A stretch of DNA of 10,544 bases from Candidatus Mcinerneyibacteriota bacterium (GTDB lineage Bacteria; AUK180; JAQVHJ01). The stretch covers positions 1 through 10,544 of the forward strand of contig DAOVMD010000067.1 in the NCBI GenBank assembly GCA_030630935.1. The letters are read 5' to 3'. Below are positions 573 through 10,544 of the stretch, piece by piece. The translations under genes and the position numbers were made by a program. Within the stretch, counting starts at the first letter, position 1. Each line of letters opens with the position of its first letter. Below the pieces are notes generated by a model that saw only the letters and a program-made list of their open reading frames with translations, was not told the DNA's origin and ran no database searches.

Positions 573-3248
573 CTATTTATATTCAAACTTAAGACACAAT
601 GTTTCGAAACTCATATTAACTTTTACTGCGTTATGAGGAATTAAAATATATTTCCATTGCTTTTTATTATTCTCTTCAGCATATTTTGATGCATTTGAAC
701 AATAGTATAAAGCAGCTTTTGCTTTTTCAATGACTTCTGAACTTTCCATATCTTTCTGCTTTTTTGTTTCAACCATATATATCCAATTGTCTGTCTCAAC
801 AATAAAATCGGGATTATATTTCTGTGAGTTGTGATTCCATAACATATTAAACTGACCATCTGCAGGACGGAGCCACTTTTTAATATCTTTATCCTTTTCT
901 AAAATAATCGCGAAATCTTTCTCGGTCTTTGAATCAAACTTATACAAATTATGACATGCTTTTTTAAATCCGGTAAAGATTTTTGTTGGGATCGTAGAAG
1001 TAGGTTCTATTGTCTCTGTATATATATAAATAGAATCTGATTTATATTTGGAATAGTTATGCTCCTTAATTTCTGTAAAAGGATATACTTTAACATCTTC
1101 GTATTCAGGAATATCATAAAAGAAATTCTCCATTATCTGTGCATATATAAATTTTGCAATATCAAGTTTATTGAATTGAACAACATTTATAACATCATCT
1201 TTGTTCTGAAAATACGATTTAAAATGTGTCAATGCTTGGTTCGCCAATTTAAATAAAAGATCTGATTGCTCATCATAATCAATCTCCGGCAGGTTAACCA
1301 GTTCATTTACAATTAGATTATCCAATTTATCAGGGATAATTCTGCCTTTGCCTTTTATGTAACTTACTCCATCTTCCTGTTCCCTTAGTCTCTGAATTAA
1401 AATCTCCTCAGAAACAGGCTGGTAATTCAAGGAACCTATATCAAGGTCAAAATCCTTAATTCCTGATTTAATATTATCACTCTGCAAAATTGATATACGG
1501 GGAATTTCTATCGTTTTATGAATGAACTTCTCAACAACATCTTCATAAATAGATTCTGCTTCCTGAACTTTCTCTGCAGCAAAAAATTCCTGCTGGGGTT
1601 TACTTAGTATTCTTTCTTTAAATTTCTCAATCAGTATTTTCTTTGCTTTTTCTCCCGATAACTCATCTACACTCTTAACTTCCTGATTTAGTAAGGGAAT
1701 AAGCTCTGCAAGCTCACGTTCTAATTGAAGTTTCTCTTTTGCCTTTTCTCGTTCTCCTGAATCTTCAATTAATTCTATCTTCTCTTCCTGATTCTTAAAT
1801 TCCAGTTCCATTGGAGTTACAGCCGTTATGATTTCCTTATCTTTACTTAATTCGCCGGGGTCTATTTCAATAATATTTTTCTTCTTAATAATTGAATCCG
1901 GTTTATTTGCTGCATCAATTATCTCCTGAAATTTATCATGGGCAACAATTGTTAAAGTATCCACTTTTCTGTCGTTTGTTTTGAATCCGTAAGGTAATCT
2001 CAAGCCACGACCAATGGTTTGTTCACGTAGTGTAGTAGAAGCAGCAGTTCTTAATGGGATAATAGTATAAAGATTTGTGACATCCCAACCCTCTTTCAGC
2101 ATATTTACATGAATCACGATCTCAATCTGATTATCAGGATTCTCTAAAGATAAAAGCTTCTCAATATTCTCCGCTTTTTCACCACCTCTTTGATTTGAAT
2201 GGATTTCCATAACTTTATCTGCATATTTCCCTTCAAAGAATGCATTCGATTGAATTAGTGATTTAAGTTTTCCTGCATGAGTTGTATCTTTTGCTACAAC
2301 CAAAATAAATGGCTTAACGAGTTCTACTTTATTGTTCCTGGAATATATATCAAGAGCAAGCCTGGTATCTTCATGAATTCTAATGCCGTCCTCAAGTTTT
2401 ATAATATCAACTTCTTCAATTGATAATTTTGACGGGTCAAAATCTTTTCGGGTCGCAACAGCAGGCTCCTTTACAAAACCATCTTCTATTGCCATTGACA
2501 GTGGATATTCATATACCACATTCTTAAATTTAATTGTCTTACCGCTTCTCTCAACTTGGGGTGTTGCAGTTAATTCCAAACCAATAATCGGCTCAAGTTC
2601 ATTTATTACCTGCATCCCTCTATCTGCTCTATAATGATGTGATTCATCCATTAATAAAACAAGATCATCAAGATTAGATAAATAATTAAAATATGAATCT
2701 CCCAAGTACTCAGATAATCTTTTAATTTTCGGTTCATTACCGCTTCTTGTCTCGGCATTGATCTTGGAAATATTGAAAATATTAATATGTACTTCTGAAT
2801 GAAATATGGATAACTGTGATGCTTCAAGATAATTATCCCCGGTGATTATCCTGGGTGGTGTCTGTGCAAACTCGCCGATTCCTTTAAAAACATATTTGGG
2901 ATGAGCGGGATTTGAGAAATCTTCAATTAATTTATTATAAATTGTCAGGTTAGGTGCAAGAATAAAAAAGTTCTTTACTCCTTTTGATAAATACAGATAA
3001 ATAACAAACGCTCCCATTAGTCTGGTCTTACCTACGCCGGTTGCTAATGCAAAACAAAATGAAGGAAAATCCCTCTCAAAATCTGTACAAATCGGATATA
3101 AAGAATTAACTTTCTCAAGTTCAGCTGGTAAATCAATTCCTTTCCTAAACTCAAGGTCATCCAAAATGCGATTGAGAATTTCAAGGCTCCTTCTCTGGGG
3201 AAACCTGAGGCTTAACCGGTTTGATATTAATTGAGCTGTTCTATCCAT
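573..3248 (-). CDS. res: Type III restriction endonuclease subunit Res (helicase-nuclease)
   Basis: This 891-aa protein is the restriction subunit of a type III R-M system, which uses ATP to communicate between two Mod-bound recognition sites and then cuts DNA. The SF2 helicase motifs are in order: Walker A ATGVGKT (69-75), Walker B/DEAH-like DESHH (201-205), motif III LTATP (226-230), motif V MLKEGWDV (383-390) and motif VI QTIGRGLRLP (410-419). The C-terminus has a PD-(D/E)xK nuclease core, P813-D814-F815 followed by E827-T-K829. The length is normal for Res and no catalytic residue is obviously missing. The ATG overlaps the last 8 bases of yhcG, so translation is probably coupled. AAGAGA lies 6 bases upstream as a modest ribosome-binding site. 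Its normal partner Mod is truncated here, so I infer the enzyme has lost target recognition unless another Mod is supplied. The family call is firm; activity is doubtful. Confidence 0.93.
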   Translation of the reverse strand: MDRTAQLISNRLSLRFPQRRSLEILNRILDDLEFRKGIDLPAELEKVNSLYPICTDFERDFPSFCFALATGVGKTRLMGAFVIYLYLSKGVKNFFILAPNLTIYNKLIEDFSNPAHPKYVFKGIGEFAQTPPRIITGDNYLEASQLSIFHSEVHINIFNISKINAETRSGNEPKIKRLSEYLGDSYFNYLSNLDDLVLLMDESHHYRADRGMQVINELEPIIGLELTATPQVERSGKTIKFKNVVYEYPLSMAIEDGFVKEPAVATRKDFDPSKLSIEEVDIIKLEDGIRIHEDTRLALDIYSRNNKVELVKPFILVVAKDTTHAGKLKSLIQSNAFFEGKYADKVMEIHSNQRGGEKAENIEKLLSLENPDNQIEIVIHVNMLKEGWDVTNLYTIIPLRTAASTTLREQTIGRGLRLPYGFKTNDRKVDTLTIVAHDKFQEIIDAANKPDSIIKKKNIIEIDPGELSKDKEIITAVTPMELEFKNQEEKIELIEDSGEREKAKEKLQLERELAELIPLLNQEVKSVDELSGEKAKKILIEKFKERILSKPQQEFFAAEKVQEAESIYEDVVEKFIHKTIEIPRISILQSDNIKSGIKDFDLDIGSLNYQPVSEEILIQRLREQEDGVSYIKGKGRIIPDKLDNLIVNELVNLPEIDYDEQSDLLFKLANQALTHFKSYFQNKDDVINVVQFNKLDIAKFIYAQIMENFFYDIPEYEDVKVYPFTEIKEHNYSKYKSDSIYIYTETIEPTSTIPTKIFTGFKKACHNLYKFDSKTEKDFAIILEKDKDIKKWLRPADGQFNMLWNHNSQKYNPDFIVETDNWIYMVETKKQKDMESSEVIEKAKAALYYCSNASKYAEENNKKQWKYILIPHNAVKVNMSFETLCLKFEYK

Positions 3249-4341
3249 TTTTATTCTCTTTTTCTTTTTTTATACTTGAAATATGTTTTTGAGCATAGCT
3301 AATTGCTGCCTTTAATTTTTTCTTCAATAATTTCTTCGGCGGTAATTCTGTTAAATATTCTGCAACATGAATGCCGGATTTACTTAGTTGTAATAGTTCT
3401 ATCTGTTCTTTGCTTCCTTCAGTGCAGAGAATTAGACCCAAGGGAGGTTCTTCAGTAGATCCAGTTTCGTTTTTCTCAAGCCATCTTAAATAAAGTTCCA
3501 TCTGTCCTTTATATGCCGCTTTGAATTTTCCTAACTTAAGATCTATCGCGACTAATCTCTTTAGTTTACGATGATAAAATAGAAGATCAATATAAAAATC
3601 ATCACCATCAATAATTATTCTCTTCTGTCGTGCAATAAAGCTAAAACCTATTCCTAACTCAAGAATGAAGGATTCAAGCTCTCGTAATATTGCCTTCTCC
3701 AAATCCTTCTCTAAGTATGTATCTTTAAGTCCAAGAAAATCTAAAATATATGGATTTTTAAATACAAGATCGGGCGTAAGGATATCTTTTTTTCGAAGTT
3801 TATCTATTTCTTTGCGTATAAGTTTTTTTGGTTTTTTAGATAATACAGTACGCTCATATAGCATACCGCTTAATTTATTTCTAAGTATTCGTACACTCCA
3901 CATTTCTATACGGCACATTTCTGAATAGAAATCTATTTTAAGCTGATCTTTTATTGGAATAAGAGTAACAAAATGACTCCAGGTCAATTGTCGTGACAGT
4001 GTAACGACAATCTTTTCCTTAGGAAAAACCTCTGAAAATTGAATCATTCGTCGAATATTTTTCTCTGAAAATCCATTTCCGTAATCATTTACCAATTGTC
4101 GTGACAGCGTAACGACAATTTCTTCTCCATATTCCGCACGCTTGTTCTTTAATATTTCATCGTTGATTTTTTTACCAATCCTCCAATAAAGTATTGTAAG
4201 TCCCGAATTCACTACAACCGCAATTGCAGAACGAGTTTCCTCTATCAATTTACGAATATCAGAAACAAGAATTCTTGAGTTCAGTTTTTTAGATTTCTTT
4301 ATTGGTTTCTTTGATGATTTCTTAATCGCGCTTTTCTTCAT
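3241..4341 (-). CDS. YhcG/DUF1016 PD-(D/E)xK nuclease family protein
   Basis: This 366-aa protein belongs to the YhcG (DUF1016) family, which is often found beside restriction-modification genes. Its exact role is unsettled. After a lysine-rich start (about 1-20), the DUF1016 N-terminal helical domain spans roughly 25-170 and includes WSHFVTLIPI (121-130). The C-terminal nuclease-like domain follows, with E221, D252 in FYIDLLFYHRKLKRLVAIDL, and D267-L-K269, matching a PD-(D/E)xK core with D in place of the usual E. The peptide IVVTLSRQL occurs twice (75-83, 111-119), each encoded by an imperfect palindrome. The gene starts 9 bases after mod, with a strong AGAAGG site 5 bases before the ATG, and overlaps res by 8 bases. 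Its place between mod and res suggests it is part of the R-M operon as an accessory factor. The frame is intact, with no sign of decay. Confidence 0.9.
   Translation of the reverse strand: MKKSAIKKSSKKPIKKSKKLNSRILVSDIRKLIEETRSAIAVVVNSGLTILYWRIGKKINDEILKNKRAEYGEEIVVTLSRQLVNDYGNGFSEKNIRRMIQFSEVFPKEKIVVTLSRQLTWSHFVTLIPIKDQLKIDFYSEMCRIEMWSVRILRNKLSGMLYERTVLSKKPKKLIRKEIDKLRKKDILTPDLVFKNPYILDFLGLKDTYLEKDLEKAILRELESFILELGIGFSFIARQKRIIIDGDDFYIDLLFYHRKLKRLVAIDLKLGKFKAAYKGQMELYLRWLEKNETGSTEEPPLGLILCTEGSKEQIELLQLSKSGIHVAEYLTELPPKKLLKKKLKAAISYAQKHISSIKKEKENKNG
3986..4012. repeat. Palindromic repeat inside yhcG, copy encoding residues 111-119
   Basis: AATTGTCGT and ACGACAATC flank a 9-base centre, forming near-perfect 9-bp arms. 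This 27-base unit matches the one at 4094-4120 in 25 of 27 positions. It encodes the second IVVTLSRQL peptide. The repeated peptide is a normal feature of the family, as far as I recall, so the DNA repeat may simply follow the protein. The palindrome is an extra property that the codons do not require. Confidence 0.65.
4094..4120. repeat. Palindromic repeat inside yhcG, copy encoding residues 75-83
   Basis: AATTGTCGT and ACGACAATT form perfect 9-bp arms around GACAGCGTA. It encodes the first IVVTLSRQL peptide. The surrounding sequence 4061-4120 is the part that matches the yhcG-like fragment at 336-395, where the same arms have become a perfect 12-bp palindrome. Confidence 0.65.
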
Positions 4342-4346
4342 ATTAA

Positions 4347-4352
4347 CCTTCT
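4347..4352 (-). promoter_or_regulatory. Ribosome-binding site of yhcG
   Basis: AGAAGG lies 5 bases upstream of the yhcG ATG and overlaps the mod stop codon TAG. It supports the ATG at 4341 as the start and means that ribosomes finishing mod arrive on the yhcG initiation site. Confidence 0.75.
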
Positions 4353-5412
4353 AAAAAAGCTCGGGTTGGTTCTTATCTTTTTTCTTAACCTTTTTCTGCT
4401 TTTTTATATTCTCTTTTGGCGGGCCAACCGGTACAAATTCTGGTGCATCTTCATCCCCGGGCATATCAATTATATTTAAACTATAATCTTTCTTACCAAA
4501 CTCACACCGGCCCAAGAGCATATTGGGGATCTTTTTAACTGTAATATTGGGATACTTAGTTTCACATACTTTCTGAAATGATTTACAGCAGATTAAAAGA
4601 CTCTCATCATCTTTCATCTCATCATGAATAGTATCGATTAAATCTGCGGTGACAAATTGTGTAGTAGTAAAGATATAATCCTTCTCTGTGGACTGACCCT
4701 GCTTCCAGTAAATTTCTGGATTGGGGTAATATTTAAAACCTTCATGCTTTGACATCGAAGCAGCAAGCATATCTGCATTATAACATTCGTCTATTACCCA
4801 GTTATCATACTTATCCTTCTTAAGAAGACTCGGTGCAAGTTCATAAAACTTGAAACCACCCCCGCCCTGCCAGTTAACCTTCTTTGAAATACCTCCCTGA
4901 TCAGTTCCGTCACAAACCTGCTTTAAACGCGGAATACAATGTGTATAACAATGATCCCCCAACTCAACTCCTATCCATCTACGATTCATTTTGTGGGCGA
5001 CTGCTGAGGTTGTACCGGAACCAAGAAATGAATCGAGGACGAGATCGTTTTTGTTTGTAGACATCTGCAAGATTCTTCTTATTTGGCTTTCTGGTTTTTT
5101 GCTTTTAGGAAAAACAACATTGCCTTCCTTGGCTATCCCTTGATAATTCATATCAAGCCAAATATTTTTAACCAACTCAGCAGTAACTAAACTACCATTA
5201 ATTATTTTCATTTTATCTTTATAAAATAAAATTCGATCGCCTTTCCATAAATATATATCCTGATACTTTTCTCTTTGAAGCAAATAAACCTTAGTATCAT
5301 CTTTCTTTGATGCGTCAATTAAATCTCTTGTTTTTTGTCCAACACCACTATAATTTGGCTGAGATAGGGTGCCGGCCTCTGTCTTCTGTCTTGATAATCC
5401 ATTTTTTATCAT
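4351..5412 (-). CDS. mod: Type III DNA methyltransferase Mod, N-terminally truncated (probable pseudogene)
   Basis: This 353-aa frame is the C-terminal half of a type III beta-class adenine methyltransferase. The SAM-binding motif I is clear: DSFLGSGTT (127-135), followed by the family-typical stretches IGVELGDHCYTHC, NWQGGGGFKFYELAPSLL, EIYWKQGQSTEKDYIF and LLICCKSFQ, and a lysine-rich tail. In beta-class enzymes the catalytic DPPY motif comes before motif I. It is absent here, together with the whole N-terminal region and probably the target recognition part. Full Mod proteins are roughly 600-700 aa, so about 300 residues are missing. The 170 bases upstream cannot hold them. The ATG overlaps the stop of an unrelated helix-turn-helix frame as ATGA, with no good ribosome-binding site, so any translation would depend on coupling. 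I infer an inactive methylase. A separately encoded N-terminal half outside the window cannot be excluded. Confidence 0.85.
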   Translation of the reverse strand: MIKNGLSRQKTEAGTLSQPNYSGVGQKTRDLIDASKKDDTKVYLLQREKYQDIYLWKGDRILFYKDKMKIINGSLVTAELVKNIWLDMNYQGIAKEGNVVFPKSKKPESQIRRILQMSTNKNDLVLDSFLGSGTTSAVAHKMNRRWIGVELGDHCYTHCIPRLKQVCDGTDQGGISKKVNWQGGGGFKFYELAPSLLKKDKYDNWVIDECYNADMLAASMSKHEGFKYYPNPEIYWKQGQSTEKDYIFTTTQFVTADLIDTIHDEMKDDESLLICCKSFQKVCETKYPNITVKKIPNMLLGRCEFGKKDYSLNIIDMPGDEDAPEFVPVGPPKENIKKQKKVKKKDKNQPELF

Positions 5413-5585
5413 GATTCTATTTTTTTTATTAATTTTCTTAAGACTTTATCTAGTTTAAGTTTCTTTTTTAACTTGTAAATCCTATAGCAAACTGCATTGT
5501 TATTGGAAAGATTAAGTTTATCGACTATTTCAGATTGACTGAGATTGCTGTATTTCCAAAGAATATAGATCAATATATTATTATG
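5409..5585 (-). pseudogene. Helix-turn-helix remnant, possibly the C-terminus of a Y1/REP-associated transposase
   Basis: A 58-codon open frame without an ATG ends in a TGA that overlaps the mod start (ATGA). Its peptide includes YSNLSQSEIVDKLNLSNNN, a typical helix-turn-helix rhythm, then AVCYRIYKLKKKLKLDKVLR and a basic tail ending KKIES. The pattern resembles the C-terminal domain of some IS200-like/REP-associated tyrosine transposases, where a similar helix-turn-helix is followed by a KRLKKKL-like helix. No HUH or tyrosine motif is visible upstream. A short frame starting at the ATG at 5623 (MHYKYHKLLV) would join it after one frameshift, so a decayed small DNA-binding protein is an alternative. 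It sits where the missing half of mod should be, which points to a recombination or insertion junction. Confidence 0.45.
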
Positions 5586-5799
5586 TTATTTTGAACCAAA
5601 AGCTTATGATACTTATAATGCATTTCTGTGTAATCTTTACAGGGATTAAGCGGATTAAAGAGATTATTTTAAAATTTAAAATATGAAATAAGTAAGAGAC
5701 CAGCACCCTAAATCATAATAAACCATTGGTTAATGTAATTATAAACATTTATTCATTAGATTATTATATCATTTCTTTTTATAAAAGTCAAATAAATGA
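5586..5799. other. AT-rich intergenic region between the small gene and the R-M locus
   Basis: No gene is supported here. It contains the right copy of the 18-bp direct repeat (5693-5710) and a short purine-rich rhythm (GGATTAAGCGGATTAAAG at 5643-5660). I see no convincing promoter for the mod operon and no strong terminator for the gene that ends at 5800. Confidence 0.5.
5693..5710 (+). repeat. Right copy of 18-bp direct repeat flanking the R-M locus
   Basis: TAAGAGACCAGCACCCTA matches the left copy at 232-249 in 16 of 18 positions and in the same orientation, about 5.46 kb away. It sits about 110 bases beyond the end of the helix-turn-helix remnant, so the pair encloses the remnant, mod, yhcG, res and the downstream repeat debris. 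Confidence 0.5.
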
Positions 5800-6171
5800 T
5801 TATGAAATCATATAGATTTCTCTAATCAATTCAATTTCGAATTCATATTCTTGTTTTTTTAAAGTAATAAAAGTTACTGGATCTTTCTTTAAAAATTTTT
5901 CTATTTTTTCAAAATATTTAGTGTTACCATGAATAAAAATATCATTCTCATTTAAACCATGTCTTGCAATCCAATAACAAATTTTAAAAACGAATTTGCT
6001 CAATTTATCTATTTCTCCTTCCTTAAATATTTTGCTTTTTGTTATTTCTAACTTCTCTAAGTTAAGATTTTCTTTAAGAATTATTGCAGTTCTTATACTC
6101 TCAAAAACATTACTCTTGTTCTCTTTAATAATTTTTATATTTAAGTACCCTTTTCGTAGTTCATTATTCAT
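5800..6171 (-). CDS. Small hypothetical protein
   Basis: I do not recognise this protein. From the chosen ATG at 6171 it is 123 aa (MNNELRKGYL...), rich in K, E, I and N, with no signal peptide, no membrane segment and no catalytic motif I can name. Its alternating beta/alpha look (FVFKICYWIARHGLNEND, then IFIHGN, then FEKIEKFLKK) suggests a small soluble domain. The upstream in-frame ATG at 6186 would give 128 aa. I prefer 6171 because GAAGGA sits 7 bases before it and the promoter-like box at 6195-6202 would place the transcript start at about 6186-6190. It lies 48 bases after the giant gene but seems to have its own promoter. A palindrome overlapping that promoter allows for autoregulation or control by a small regulator. 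It does not overlap the R-M operon. Confidence 0.65.
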   Translation of the reverse strand: MNNELRKGYLNIKIIKENKSNVFESIRTAIILKENLNLEKLEITKSKIFKEGEIDKLSKFVFKICYWIARHGLNENDIFIHGNTKYFEKIEKFLKKDPVTFITLKKQEYEFEIELIREIYMIS

Positions 6172-6178
6172 TTTAATG

Positions 6179-6184
6179 TCCTTC
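6179..6184 (-). promoter_or_regulatory. Ribosome-binding site selecting the ATG at 6171
   Basis: GAAGGA is followed by a 7-base spacer and ATG (6171-6169). The alternative ATG at 6186 overlaps this site and has no ribosome-binding site of its own, so the shorter protein start is favoured. Confidence 0.55.
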
Positions 6185-6194
6185 ATCTTTGCGA

Positions 6195-6234: not shown

Positions 6235-9200
6235 TTATACCTCCATAATTTCAACTAAAATTATTAGTTTAATAATACCTATTTTAATATTCGTTATCTC
6301 CACACTCTCCACTTTCTTTAGGATTTCTATTGCTTGGATTAGGGTTAGGATTGCATGTTCTTTTTGTTCGGGAGTGGTGATGCTGTTCAGGTCGAGTCTT
6401 TCAATTTTCTTGATTACGTTGTTTATGTGGTTCTGATCCTGATGGGTTTCGGGTGTGAGGTCATTTAGTTCTTCGAGGATGGCCTGCTTGATGTCTTCAC
6501 TGGTACCTGTTAGTTCAATGTCCTTAGTGAGCTGTGCATAGTTATACCATAATCCACTAACGAGATAATCAATGGTGGTTATGAATGTGTAGATGTCTGC
6601 TGAATCAGGTAATTTCACTATAAAGTGAAGCATCTTTTCTGAGTTAATAGAAGGCGGTGCTGACACCGCGAACTGCCATGTGATTGAGTTATTATCAACA
6701 TCACCGTCCTGGAAAACCTGAACTATTTCTACTCCGCCGGGAACTTCTTCTGTTACTTTGACAGTCAAAGGAACTACCAACGACTTTATTCTTATTTGTA
6801 ACGGGATTATTCCACCGGGGATTATCTGAACTTCCTGTGGCTTGACATATTCAATTGAACCTTTTAATAGTTCTGATAATTTCGACAGGTTATCCTCTGT
6901 AAGATTTAAGAACAAATCAAACGGAAGATATACTACCTTACCTTTTCCATAGTTGTTCAGGACAATTGCAGGTGTCGGGTCATGCGGTGCAACAGATATT
7001 GTTCCATAACCCACAGAATTACTGGTATCGTTCAGCTCTGCTTTATAAACCAATTCTTCCGCTGTAAATATTCCACCTGTGGATATCGGCGAATCATCGA
7101 GTGAAACCATAATCGGCATTGTGGGATAACTGCCGTGATAAACAATTCCCAGGGCTTCAGGCTTATTGCCTTCGCCATTGAAATGATAGTATTTAGACGA
7201 TATCAAACCCCTGCCTGCAAAAATATGCTCCCTCATCTCAAGCGAAGTGTGTCCTTCAAGATTTTTATAATTACCGAGAACGACATAAGTATTATACAGA
7301 CTGCTCCTGAATCCTTTAACAAAATCTTCCTGATTTGTAGTTATATTATACATTAATAATCCCGACTCATCAAGAATCTGTGTTAATCTCTCTAACTTTT
7401 CAGAAGTGACATCTTCAGGTTTCTGATTCAGCCAAATTAAAACACTTGAAGCTGTGGAAAGGTCAATCGAACCTTCAAACTCTTCTGATAACTGAACAGT
7501 TATACTCTTTTCCTGTTCGACCGTCCCAAGGTTATCAAAACTCCTGTAACTGATTATATATTCACCATAATTATACATCGCAAGATTAAACGGATTCAAA
7601 TAGTTAAGCCATCCGGTGTCTGTTGTTCCTGTGCTGTTCCTTATCATATATTCCGTCCTTTGGACTCCGGAATGCAATACAGGTTTATCAACTGTGGCTA
7701 ATGTAAACCCGGTTCCTTTGATTACATAGATAGTTCCGTTATCTTCCCTTGAAGGTGCATAGGCAATCGTTGTTTCGGGTGATGAGTCGTCAACAATAAC
7801 TGTAATCGTTTTTACCTGTTCGGTATTCCCAAGGTTATCAACTCCCCTGTAACTAATTGTATGCTGACCTTCTCCAAATCCTGAGAATGTGAATGCAGTG
7901 TTATATTCGATCCAATCTGAATTATCACCCTGTGAATCAGCACTTGTGCTGTATTGAATTTTATTCAATCCTGAGCCATTCTCAACGGTTGTAATAGTAA
8001 ACGGAGTATTGGATGTTACATATTTATTATTACCGGAAATATATTTCGGGATACCGATTGAAATACCGGAAACAGGTTTGGTGTTATCAACAATGACTGT
8101 GATCGACTTTTCCTCTTCCTGGTTATTCGCATTGTCTATGCTTCTATATATTATTAAATATTCATCATCACTATAACCATTTAATGTAAACGGCACTGTA
8201 TAAGTTATCCAAGCGGTGTTATCTATATCTTGTGCGCTTGCGCTCTTGAGCACTATTTTGTACTCTGTCTTCTTAACTCCTGAAATATCATCAGTTGCAG
8301 TTAGTGTGAATTCAGTAACACCCGTAACATAAACATTCTCTCCATCAACATATTTCGGTTCCCCTATCGAAATACTTGTCTCAGGAGGTGTGTTGTCAGC
8401 ATTAATAAAGACCATTACACTTTGAACTTCCTCGTCATTACCTAATCTATCAGTACTGAAATATTCAATGGTAACCTCAATCTCTTCTACCCCTTCCAAA
8501 TTAAACGCCCCGTCATAAATCTGCCAATCACCACCATTGATTCTATACATCGTAACAGAGATCCCGCATCCTGAATCAATTGCATTGAAAGTAAATGGAG
8601 TCTCATACCCAACATAAATATTTCCGTTTATAACTTCCTTCGGTTCACCAATCACAATCAATGTGGATGGGTCTGTCTTATCGAGAGTAACTGCCTTTGT
8701 ATTAACTGAGCTTTGGTTTCCTGCATTATCAGCAGCATAATAACTTACAACATAATCACCATCCGAATATCCTTCCAGAGTAAATGCTTCAGTATTATAA
8801 ACAGCCCAATTACCTAAATTAATTCTATACTTAATCTCATTAATACCTGAGAATGCATCGAATCCAAACATATAAATTTTAGTATTATCAGAAATAAATA
8901 AAATCTCATTTACTTCTAAATTAGGATACCCAAGATATGCTTCAACATAAGGTTTGGAATTATCAACCTTCAATATCATTGTATCGGGATTGGAATCCCC
9001 GGCAACTGAATCAGGACCATTACCGAGTGTATCAACAGCAGATATACTAATCACATGCGCACCATCCCATAGCTGAGTTGTGTCCACATTCATTGAATAC
9101 TCAGCTGCTAATGTATTTCCTGAAACCTTTGTCATCAGAACAGGTGTACTTATGTCAATACAAAAATCAACTGTCTCAATCCCTCGATAATCATCCGTAA

Positions 9201-10544
9201 TCAGGGCTTTGATATCAATTATTCCCCTATTCCAACTACCTTCAGTTGGCTCTGTAATCTGAACAACCGGTGGATTATATTCCCAACCAACCCTTGCAAT
9301 CACTTCATTTGACGGACTACTCTCCTCATTGAGATTGTTTAAACCTGTAACAGTATAATGATACTCACCATCTTTGAGGTTATAATCAATGAATGATGTC
9401 TCCGGAGGTGAAGCCAGATCTGTACCATAAATCTCAAATTCCCTAATTTGACAAGAAGAGATGTAGGATGGAGAAAGAGCTATAATATCAATCTTAATTT
9501 TGCTTGTTTGAATAGGTTCTGGTAATGTGTAATAATAATACATATTATTATTATAGACAACACTTTTGATTGATTTCCAGGTATTGTTCTCCCAAACAGA
9601 AATAGTAAATTCATTTTGGAAAAAACTTCCATTCCATATAATTCTAATTTGATGTACTAATTTCTCTTCATTGAAATCCATCTCTACATAACCATCTTTA
9701 ACTTGTGGAAATGAAGGATAATATGGAGTCCAGAAAGTACCTGGACTCCCGTCTTTTAATTTTATTATAAGCGAGTACGGCCACGGTCTTTCTCGATTCG
9801 AGGTTGCGATACAAGTACTATCAAGAGAGAGATTCCTAGCGCTTGTAGATGCTATCGTTTCAATCAGGTTATCATCCCTATAAACTTTATACCCGGAAAT
9901 ATCCGGATCGGGTCCCTGTTCCCAATCAAGGTGAACATCTTTATTATTTACTGCTGCAGTTAGATTTTGTGGTGGACACAGGTAATCCCAGATAACCGTT
10001 ACAGCATCTGAAAGTTGACTGACATTACCTTCATCATCATAACTCTTGAGCTTTACATACTTCGGAATATTCTTAATCAGGCCTGAAACCAGGTATTCTT
10101 CAACGGTAATATTTTCAAAATTATCGAAAGTGTTCGGATTATCACTTACATAGATTCTATATCCTGTAACATTCGGATCAATAGATTTATCCCATTTAAC
10201 AAGTGCTGTTTCACAGTTTTTCTCAACGGTTATATTCTCCGGAATCATTAAACCATAATGATATCGAACTATTTTCTCTTTTATATTTCCATCTTTCTCA
10301 AGGACAATCCTAACTTCGTTCCAGCCTTGTACTGAATCGATAAAAGTTACATTAAACTCTGTACTGAACGACGGTTGAATAATTTTCTTAAACTTAATCT
10401 TTTCATTCAGATAAATATTCAAGTTATAATCTATGTTCCCTCTTGTTTTACATGAGAAATTAACAGGTTCATTCCCTTCAGGATAAAATTCCTTATCTGT
10501 ACTCGCTTCAATAATTTCGAAGTCTGCTTTATTGATGTAATACA
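6235..10544 (-). CDS. Giant multidomain surface/secreted protein (FN3, discoidin-like, OmpL47 repeats), 5' end outside window
   Basis: The frame is open to the right edge. A TTG at 10422 is not the start, since 40 more codons precede it and read as a beta-rich domain (KEFYPEGNEPVNFSC). Numbering from the edge, 1435 codons are visible. An Ig-like start is followed by FN3 (about 97-186) and by a second FN3 whose first half (189-231, SGYKVYRDD) and second half (376-417, LKDGEYHYTVTGLN) are separated by a discoidin/F5-8C-like domain (234-376, ending IREFEIYGTD). Next come an Ig-like domain (421-524), about five OmpL47-like repeats (524-1017), a class I amidotransferase/ThuA-like fold (1024-1231, GKGKVVYLPFDLF), a DUF11-like sandwich (1232-1337) and a helical tail (1342-1424). 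The FN3, discoidin-like and Ig-like modules imply an extracellular, carbohydrate- or surface-binding role. The signal peptide and any enzymatic domain would lie upstream. Domain borders and the amidotransferase call are approximate. Confidence 0.85.
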   Translation of the reverse strand, partial: YYINKADFEIIEASTDKEFYPEGNEPVNFSCKTRGNIDYNLNIYLNEKIKFKKIIQPSFSTEFNVTFIDSVQGWNEVRIVLEKDGNIKEKIVRYHYGLMIPENITVEKNCETALVKWDKSIDPNVTGYRIYVSDNPNTFDNFENITVEEYLVSGLIKNIPKYVKLKSYDDEGNVSQLSDAVTVIWDYLCPPQNLTAAVNNKDVHLDWEQGPDPDISGYKVYRDDNLIETIASTSARNLSLDSTCIATSNRERPWPYSLIIKLKDGSPGTFWTPYYPSFPQVKDGYVEMDFNEEKLVHQIRIIWNGSFFQNEFTISVWENNTWKSIKSVVYNNNMYYYYTLPEPIQTSKIKIDIIALSPSYISSCQIREFEIYGTDLASPPETSFIDYNLKDGEYHYTVTGLNNLNEESSPSNEVIARVGWEYNPPVVQITEPTEGSWNRGIIDIKALITDDYRGIETVDFCIDISTPVLMTKVSGNTLAAEYSMNVDTTQLWDGAHVISISAVDTLGNGPDSVAGDSNPDTMILKVDNSKPYVEAYLGYPNLEVNEILFISDNTKIYMFGFDAFSGINEIKYRINLGNWAVYNTEAFTLEGYSDGDYVVSYYAADNAGNQSSVNTKAVTLDKTDPSTLIVIGEPKEVINGNIYVGYETPFTFNAIDSGCGISVTMYRINGGDWQIYDGAFNLEGVEEIEVTIEYFSTDRLGNDEEVQSVMVFINADNTPPETSISIGEPKYVDGENVYVTGVTEFTLTATDDISGVKKTEYKIVLKSASAQDIDNTAWITYTVPFTLNGYSDDEYLIIYRSIDNANNQEEEKSITVIVDNTKPVSGISIGIPKYISGNNKYVTSNTPFTITTVENGSGLNKIQYSTSADSQGDNSDWIEYNTAFTFSGFGEGQHTISYRGVDNLGNTEQVKTITVIVDDSSPETTIAYAPSREDNGTIYVIKGTGFTLATVDKPVLHSGVQRTEYMIRNSTGTTDTGWLNYLNPFNLAMYNYGEYIISYRSFDNLGTVEQEKSITVQLSEEFEGSIDLSTASSVLIWLNQKPEDVTSEKLERLTQILDESGLLMYNITTNQEDFVKGFRSSLYNTYVVLGNYKNLEGHTSLEMREHIFAGRGLISSKYYHFNGEGNKPEALGIVYHGSYPTMPIMVSLDDSPISTGGIFTAEELVYKAELNDTSNSVGYGTISVAPHDPTPAIVLNNYGKGKVVYLPFDLFLNLTEDNLSKLSELLKGSIEYVKPQEVQIIPGGIIPLQIRIKSLVVPLTVKVTEEVPGGVEIVQVFQDGDVDNNSITWQFAVSAPPSINSEKMLHFIVKLPDSADIYTFITTIDYLVSGLWYNYAQLTKDIELTGTSEDIKQAILEELNDLTPETHQDQNHINNVIKKIERLDLNSITTPEQKEHAILTLIQAIEILKKVESVEITNIKIGIIKLIILVEIMEV
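7490..8970 (-). repeat. Array of about five OmpL47-like protein repeats
   Basis: Five units of about 95-102 residues each begin near 8970, 8683, 8398, 8091 and 7792. Each opens with D(N/K/D)(T/S)xP, continues with a variant of xIGxPK and a YV strand, then FTLxAxDxxSG, Y(K/R)I, a W-x-x-Y turn, F(T/N)LxGY, and ends with ISYRSxDNxGNxExxKSITV. The order and spacing match OmpL47-type beta domains. The units are diverged at the DNA level, so this is an old duplication and not a recent tandem expansion. Confidence 0.75.
9530..9553. repeat. TAA/TTA microsatellite palindrome in the giant gene
   Basis: TAATAATAATA and TATTATTATTA form a perfect 11-bp-arm palindrome around CA. On the coding strand it encodes runs of Asn and then Tyr (NNNMYYYY) in the discoidin-like domain. 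It is probably a codon-level coincidence of N and Y runs, though it is a possible slippage site. Confidence 0.6.

Follow-up and report, generated by a model that had tools for sequence, protein, structure and literature searches.

A type III mod gene truncated at the edge of an IS200/RAYT-like element remnant beside an intact res gene

Can a type III restriction-modification locus that combines a complete Res with half a Mod still function as a reduced system, or has it been switched off? The locus raising this question lies on the minus strand of a 10,544-nucleotide stretch of DNA from a Candidatus Mcinerneyibacteriota bacterium. This stretch, referred to as the window, makes up the whole of contig C348 in a draft assembly of 471 contigs (3.16 Mb, 80% complete). 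According to the ORF listing the genes are ordered mod-yhcG-res, with a gap of 9 bases between mod and yhcG and an 8-base overlap between yhcG and res. Relatives and profiles show mod and res to be recognizable in one operon order and homologous to full-length type III systems. The features of the operon are as follows.

573..3248, minus strand: res, type III restriction helicase-nuclease, 891 aa, complete (PF04851, PF19778; PADLOC REase_III, E 1.5e-181; motif check)
3241..4341, minus strand: yhcG, 366 aa, intact; DUF1016 N-terminal domain and YhcG PD-(D/E)XK nuclease domain (PF17761 and PF06250, full length; PADLOC PDC-S02)
4351..5364, minus strand: mod remnant, ~337 codons; C-terminal part of the target-recognition region, motifs X/I-III and C-terminal domain
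5365..5412, minus strand: leading ~16 codons of the 353-aa Mod ORF, MIKNGLSRQKTEAGTL; 3′ end of a mobile element, not mod; identical to L064:897-946

A reading of this DNA made from sequence alone had described Res as undamaged in frame and equipped with all helicase and nuclease motifs. This is borne out by the presence of the Walker A, DExH, TATP, GRGLR and PD-ExK motifs, by the conservation of 158 of the 161 columns that are invariant among relatives, and by the lack of any stop in the frame. A functional type III Res combines SF2 helicase motifs with a C-terminal PD-(D/E)XK nuclease, and both are found here; Pfam gave a ResIII match, with Helicase_C and RE_endonuc slightly under their curated cut-offs. 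Internal stops and frameshifts are absent from all three frames (mod remnant, yhcG and res). The gene between mod and res varies between loci: it encodes a YhcG nuclease in the window (3241-4341), a Bro-N/DinD-like protein in L038 (8191-9039) and a RhuM-Fic protein in L092 (6798-7799). This position is an accessory slot in type III operons.

The 353-aa Mod ORF (5412..4351, minus strand) corresponds to the C-terminal part of a type III Mod. The PADLOC MTase_III profile covers it only at 255-563 of 575 positions (E 9e-90), Pfam N6_N4_Mtase only at positions 133-214 of a 221-position model, and alignment to a 587-aa Mod from a Sphingopyxis plasmid begins at residue 255 (50% identity over 309 aligned positions). 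The missing part thus amounts to about 254 residues, not the roughly 300 estimated at first. It was correctly noted that the C-terminal half and motif I (DSFLGSGTT) are kept and DPPY is lacking, as the profile match and a motif scan confirm: the window contains no [DNS]PP[YFW] motif, whichever of its six frames is read. A functional type III Mod carries both motif I and motif IV (DPPY), of which only the former is present.

We compared the remnant with relatives drawn from genomes and plasmids. Mod lengths in these relatives, taken as stop-to-stop frames and counted only where the N-terminal half is readable (n=13), range from 530 to 614 aa; all 13 carry DPPY or DPPF at residues 68-103, with motif I near residues 325-413. 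Close full-length relatives match the PDB entries 6k0w (Mod) and 4zcf (EcoP15I Mod). A stable family of short Mods in related genomes would have spoken against a disabled locus, and the relatives examined contain no example of one. A 425-aa Mod frame in L038 looked like a second truncated Mod and was rejected, being merely cut by the contig end. In the Lachnospiraceae locus L052 a frame change splits Mod, the first part of which retains DPPY; the change (within 4532-6171) lies near a run of seven A residues, and this mod may be phase-variable or broken. The viral contigs searched yielded no relative, and an intact allele of the locus itself, against which to compare it directly, was not found. 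Among the neighbours of the relatives, a SNF2-type helicase of ~950 aa is encoded directly upstream of mod in L048 (2284-5130) and L049 (1032-3896) and one gene further away in L093 (1-2592); the best PADLOC score of the L048 protein is to DrmD.

Mapping the breakpoint against full-length Mod proteins, as had been proposed, places it at 5364/5365. Homology to intact Mod starts precisely at this position, which is also the edge of a mobile-element segment, and the ATG of the 353-aa ORF overlaps the transposase stop codon (ATGA). The segment is made up of the following parts.

5363..5587, minus strand: 3′ end of an IS200/RAYT-like Y1 transposase gene, last ~58 codons and 3′ end; 219/225 identical to G000:C343 722-946
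5365..5380, plus strand: REP-like end TAGGGTGCCGGCCTCT at the mod junction; pattern present at 15 places in the genome
5587..5710, plus strand: dispersed intergenic repeat with a REP-like end, fused to the transposase fragment; 94% to G000:C288
5695..5710, minus strand: inverted partner TAGGGTGCTGGTCTCT at the far edge of the 346-bp segment, from the same pattern search

The 346 bp from 5365 to 5710 are therefore a transposase fragment fused to a dispersed repeat, derived from a RAYT/REP element. When the DNA upstream of the Mod ORF was searched against the genome, 5380-5587 came up on contig C343 with 97% identity; the match extends to 5363-5587 and stops two bases before mod sequence proper. 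The rest of the transposase gene, upstream of the last ~58 codons, is missing from the window. On C343 the gene is a 299-aa frame of the IS200-type Y1/HUH transposase family (Y1_Tnp, PF01797, above cut-off); against NF047646, the REP-associated tyrosine transposase, it scores 41.6 bits, below the cut-off of 80, with its 5′ end cut by the contig end. Weaker copies of the 5587-5710 repeat occur on C427 (three or more) and C208. The REP-like pattern has 15 matches in the genome against none for a reversed control, and the aligned copies are alike inside the repeat, not outside. RAYT genes have been described with inverted REPs on either side (PMC2817692), and two REP-like repeats in inverted orientation, both repeated in the genome, flank the segment here. 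The junction at 5573-5587 is similar to both partners, which would suit recombination at short homology.

Past 5710, upstream of mod, ~90 bases are followed by a 128-aa ORF (5800-6186) without a family match and then by a gene for a large protein with repeated Ig-like domains (6235-10542), whose frame is still open where the contig stops. A stretch at the 3′ end of this gene (6248-6300) recurs on contig C74 with 91% identity. The 128-aa ORF was also considered as displaced Mod sequence; its 24% match (E 0.045) was taken as chance.

These observations point, with good though not full confidence, to inactivation of a mod-yhcG-res operon by insertion of a mobile element plus a deletion. An IS200/RAYT-like element with REP-like ends would have inserted into the target-recognition region of mod, at what is now the 5364/5365 junction. 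Simple insertion would leave the N-terminal half of Mod beyond the element; it is absent there, and insertion followed by deletion or repeat recombination is thus the simplest path. This later step, suggested by the absent parts and the composite nature of the 346-bp segment, would have removed most of the transposase gene, the N-terminal 254 residues of Mod with DPPY, and upstream sequence. The leftover fragment would be unable to form the methyltransferase fold. Res1Mod2 is the established subunit composition of EcoP15I, EcoPI and PstII (PMC4005696), and Mod reportedly brings Res to its site and stabilizes it (PMC3874151). Here motif IV has been lost along with much of the recognition region. 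The remnant is therefore not expected to methylate, and Res, which depends on Mod for both site recognition and stability, should be inactive; judging from this biochemistry, it would be silent rather than lethal. Most likely the locus is an ordinary defence system that has been switched off. The sequence-only reading had offered a recently disabled locus or a half borrowed from elsewhere. Of these, a disabled locus is the best reading, and a cause is at hand: exactly where Mod homology stops lies a piece of transposase sequence between inverted ends that recur in the genome.

The second option, an N-terminal half encoded elsewhere and complementing the remnant in trans, found no support. A query with 221 N-terminal residues had no match at E <= 10 in the assembled genome, while it found its targets in three other genomes (G048, G124 and G001) with E values of 4e-121, 2e-92 and 2e-74. 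No intact type III Mod was found in the assembly, and a Res query matched only this locus. Two other PF01555 methylases score above cut-off, and neither is a type III Mod by its neighbours or family matches: one, of 308 aa and encoded on C89, lies two genes away from a type I-like helicase of the HsdR type, and the other, on C393, is a permuted methylase of 496 aa with motif I first. A candidate on C130 was rejected too, being a membrane protein whose weak match falls below the cut-off. The absence of the N-terminal half is strongly indicated, though not finally in a genome that is 80% complete, and with this incompleteness as the one point in its favour, and no direct support, complementation in trans has a negligible chance of being correct. 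A more serious concern is misassembly, in which mod would be interrupted by a full-length element, or be intact in most cells, and a wrong join would have been made inside the repeat. The draft is in 471 contigs and 80% complete, the junction lies in repeats, 64 identical bases (5363-5426) are common to C343 and the window, and C343 stops within the transposase gene that it carries. These points leave room for an assembly error within 5365-5710. Against it, 6 of 225 sites distinguish the window copy from C343, and no exact stretch across 5587 is known in common. The mod/REP edge is also not easily a misjoin, and is the safer part of the junction, because an undamaged mod would share no REP-like sequence with the repeat at this point. 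As an account of the whole locus, misassembly appears unlikely.

It could still be argued that the truncation created something useful: the 353-aa protein, started from the ATG supplied by the element, might serve Res and YhcG as a non-methylating recognition adaptor. Its frame is open, with the start codon overlapping the transposase stop, the genes are tightly spaced, and the three frames are undecayed. However, the short form is not a family in any relative, the protein has only half a Rossmann core and an incomplete recognition region, and restriction without methylation would need some other means of self-protection. We regard a reduced working system of this kind as very unlikely; that a transposon has in this way produced a methylation-free type III derivative, in which a short Mod fusion guides Res and YhcG, is a shade less probable again.

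Returning to inactivation by insertion and deletion, the intact frames of res and yhcG would then be frames that have not yet decayed, or yhcG may be kept for a function of its own. With recent loss, retention of the res frame needs no special selection. Neutral decay would predict 3.1 to 6.2 stops in the three genes, and a probability of 0.045 to 0.002 of seeing none, if all of the 2.7% difference between the element copies arose after insertion; the copies may have differed before. The absence of stops, a point against the disabled-locus reading, would thus be mildly informative on selection on Res/YhcG versus recent loss only if the divergence of the copies post-dates the insertion. We dropped the stop count as a clock, as it depends too much on when the copies diverged.

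A second case shows that breakage of Mod beside an intact Res recurs. The Mod of L042, an independent type III locus in another genome (G093:C115, 4644-6225), from another subfamily of type III Mods, is without the stretch equivalent to residues 207-461 of its G001 relative, including DPPY; the adjoining Res (6961-9543, 861 aa) aligns along its length. The frames between Mod and Res of L042 resemble, by eye only, a HEPN/nucleotidyltransferase pair. The locus in the window adds to the cases in which mod goes before res, an order to be expected if Res does no harm by itself. It also illustrates that the start codon and reading frame of half a gene can come from what is left of a mobile element, so that the half gene looks like a clean short member of its family. 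The lesion is an ordinary mobile-element lesion in a type III locus rather than a novel type of system; only evidence that the short protein is active would make the case more important.

Compared with known type III restriction-modification systems (EcoP15I, EcoPI; PADLOC RM type III), the locus is alike in that Res and the Mod remnant fall into the PADLOC families REase_III and MTase_III. It is unlike them in that Mod is without its N-terminal 254 residues, including motif IV, and in the YhcG nuclease gene between mod and res. The inserted segment resembles RAYT/REP units in its transposase fragment, whose intact copy on C343 belongs to the IS200-like catalytic family, and in its inverted bounding repeats that are dispersed in the genome. 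In contrast to RAYTs proper, the C343 copy falls below the NCBIfam RAYT cut-off (41.6 versus 80 bits), and the REPs are few here (15 exact pattern matches) and REP-like, without a demonstrated GTAG-type head.
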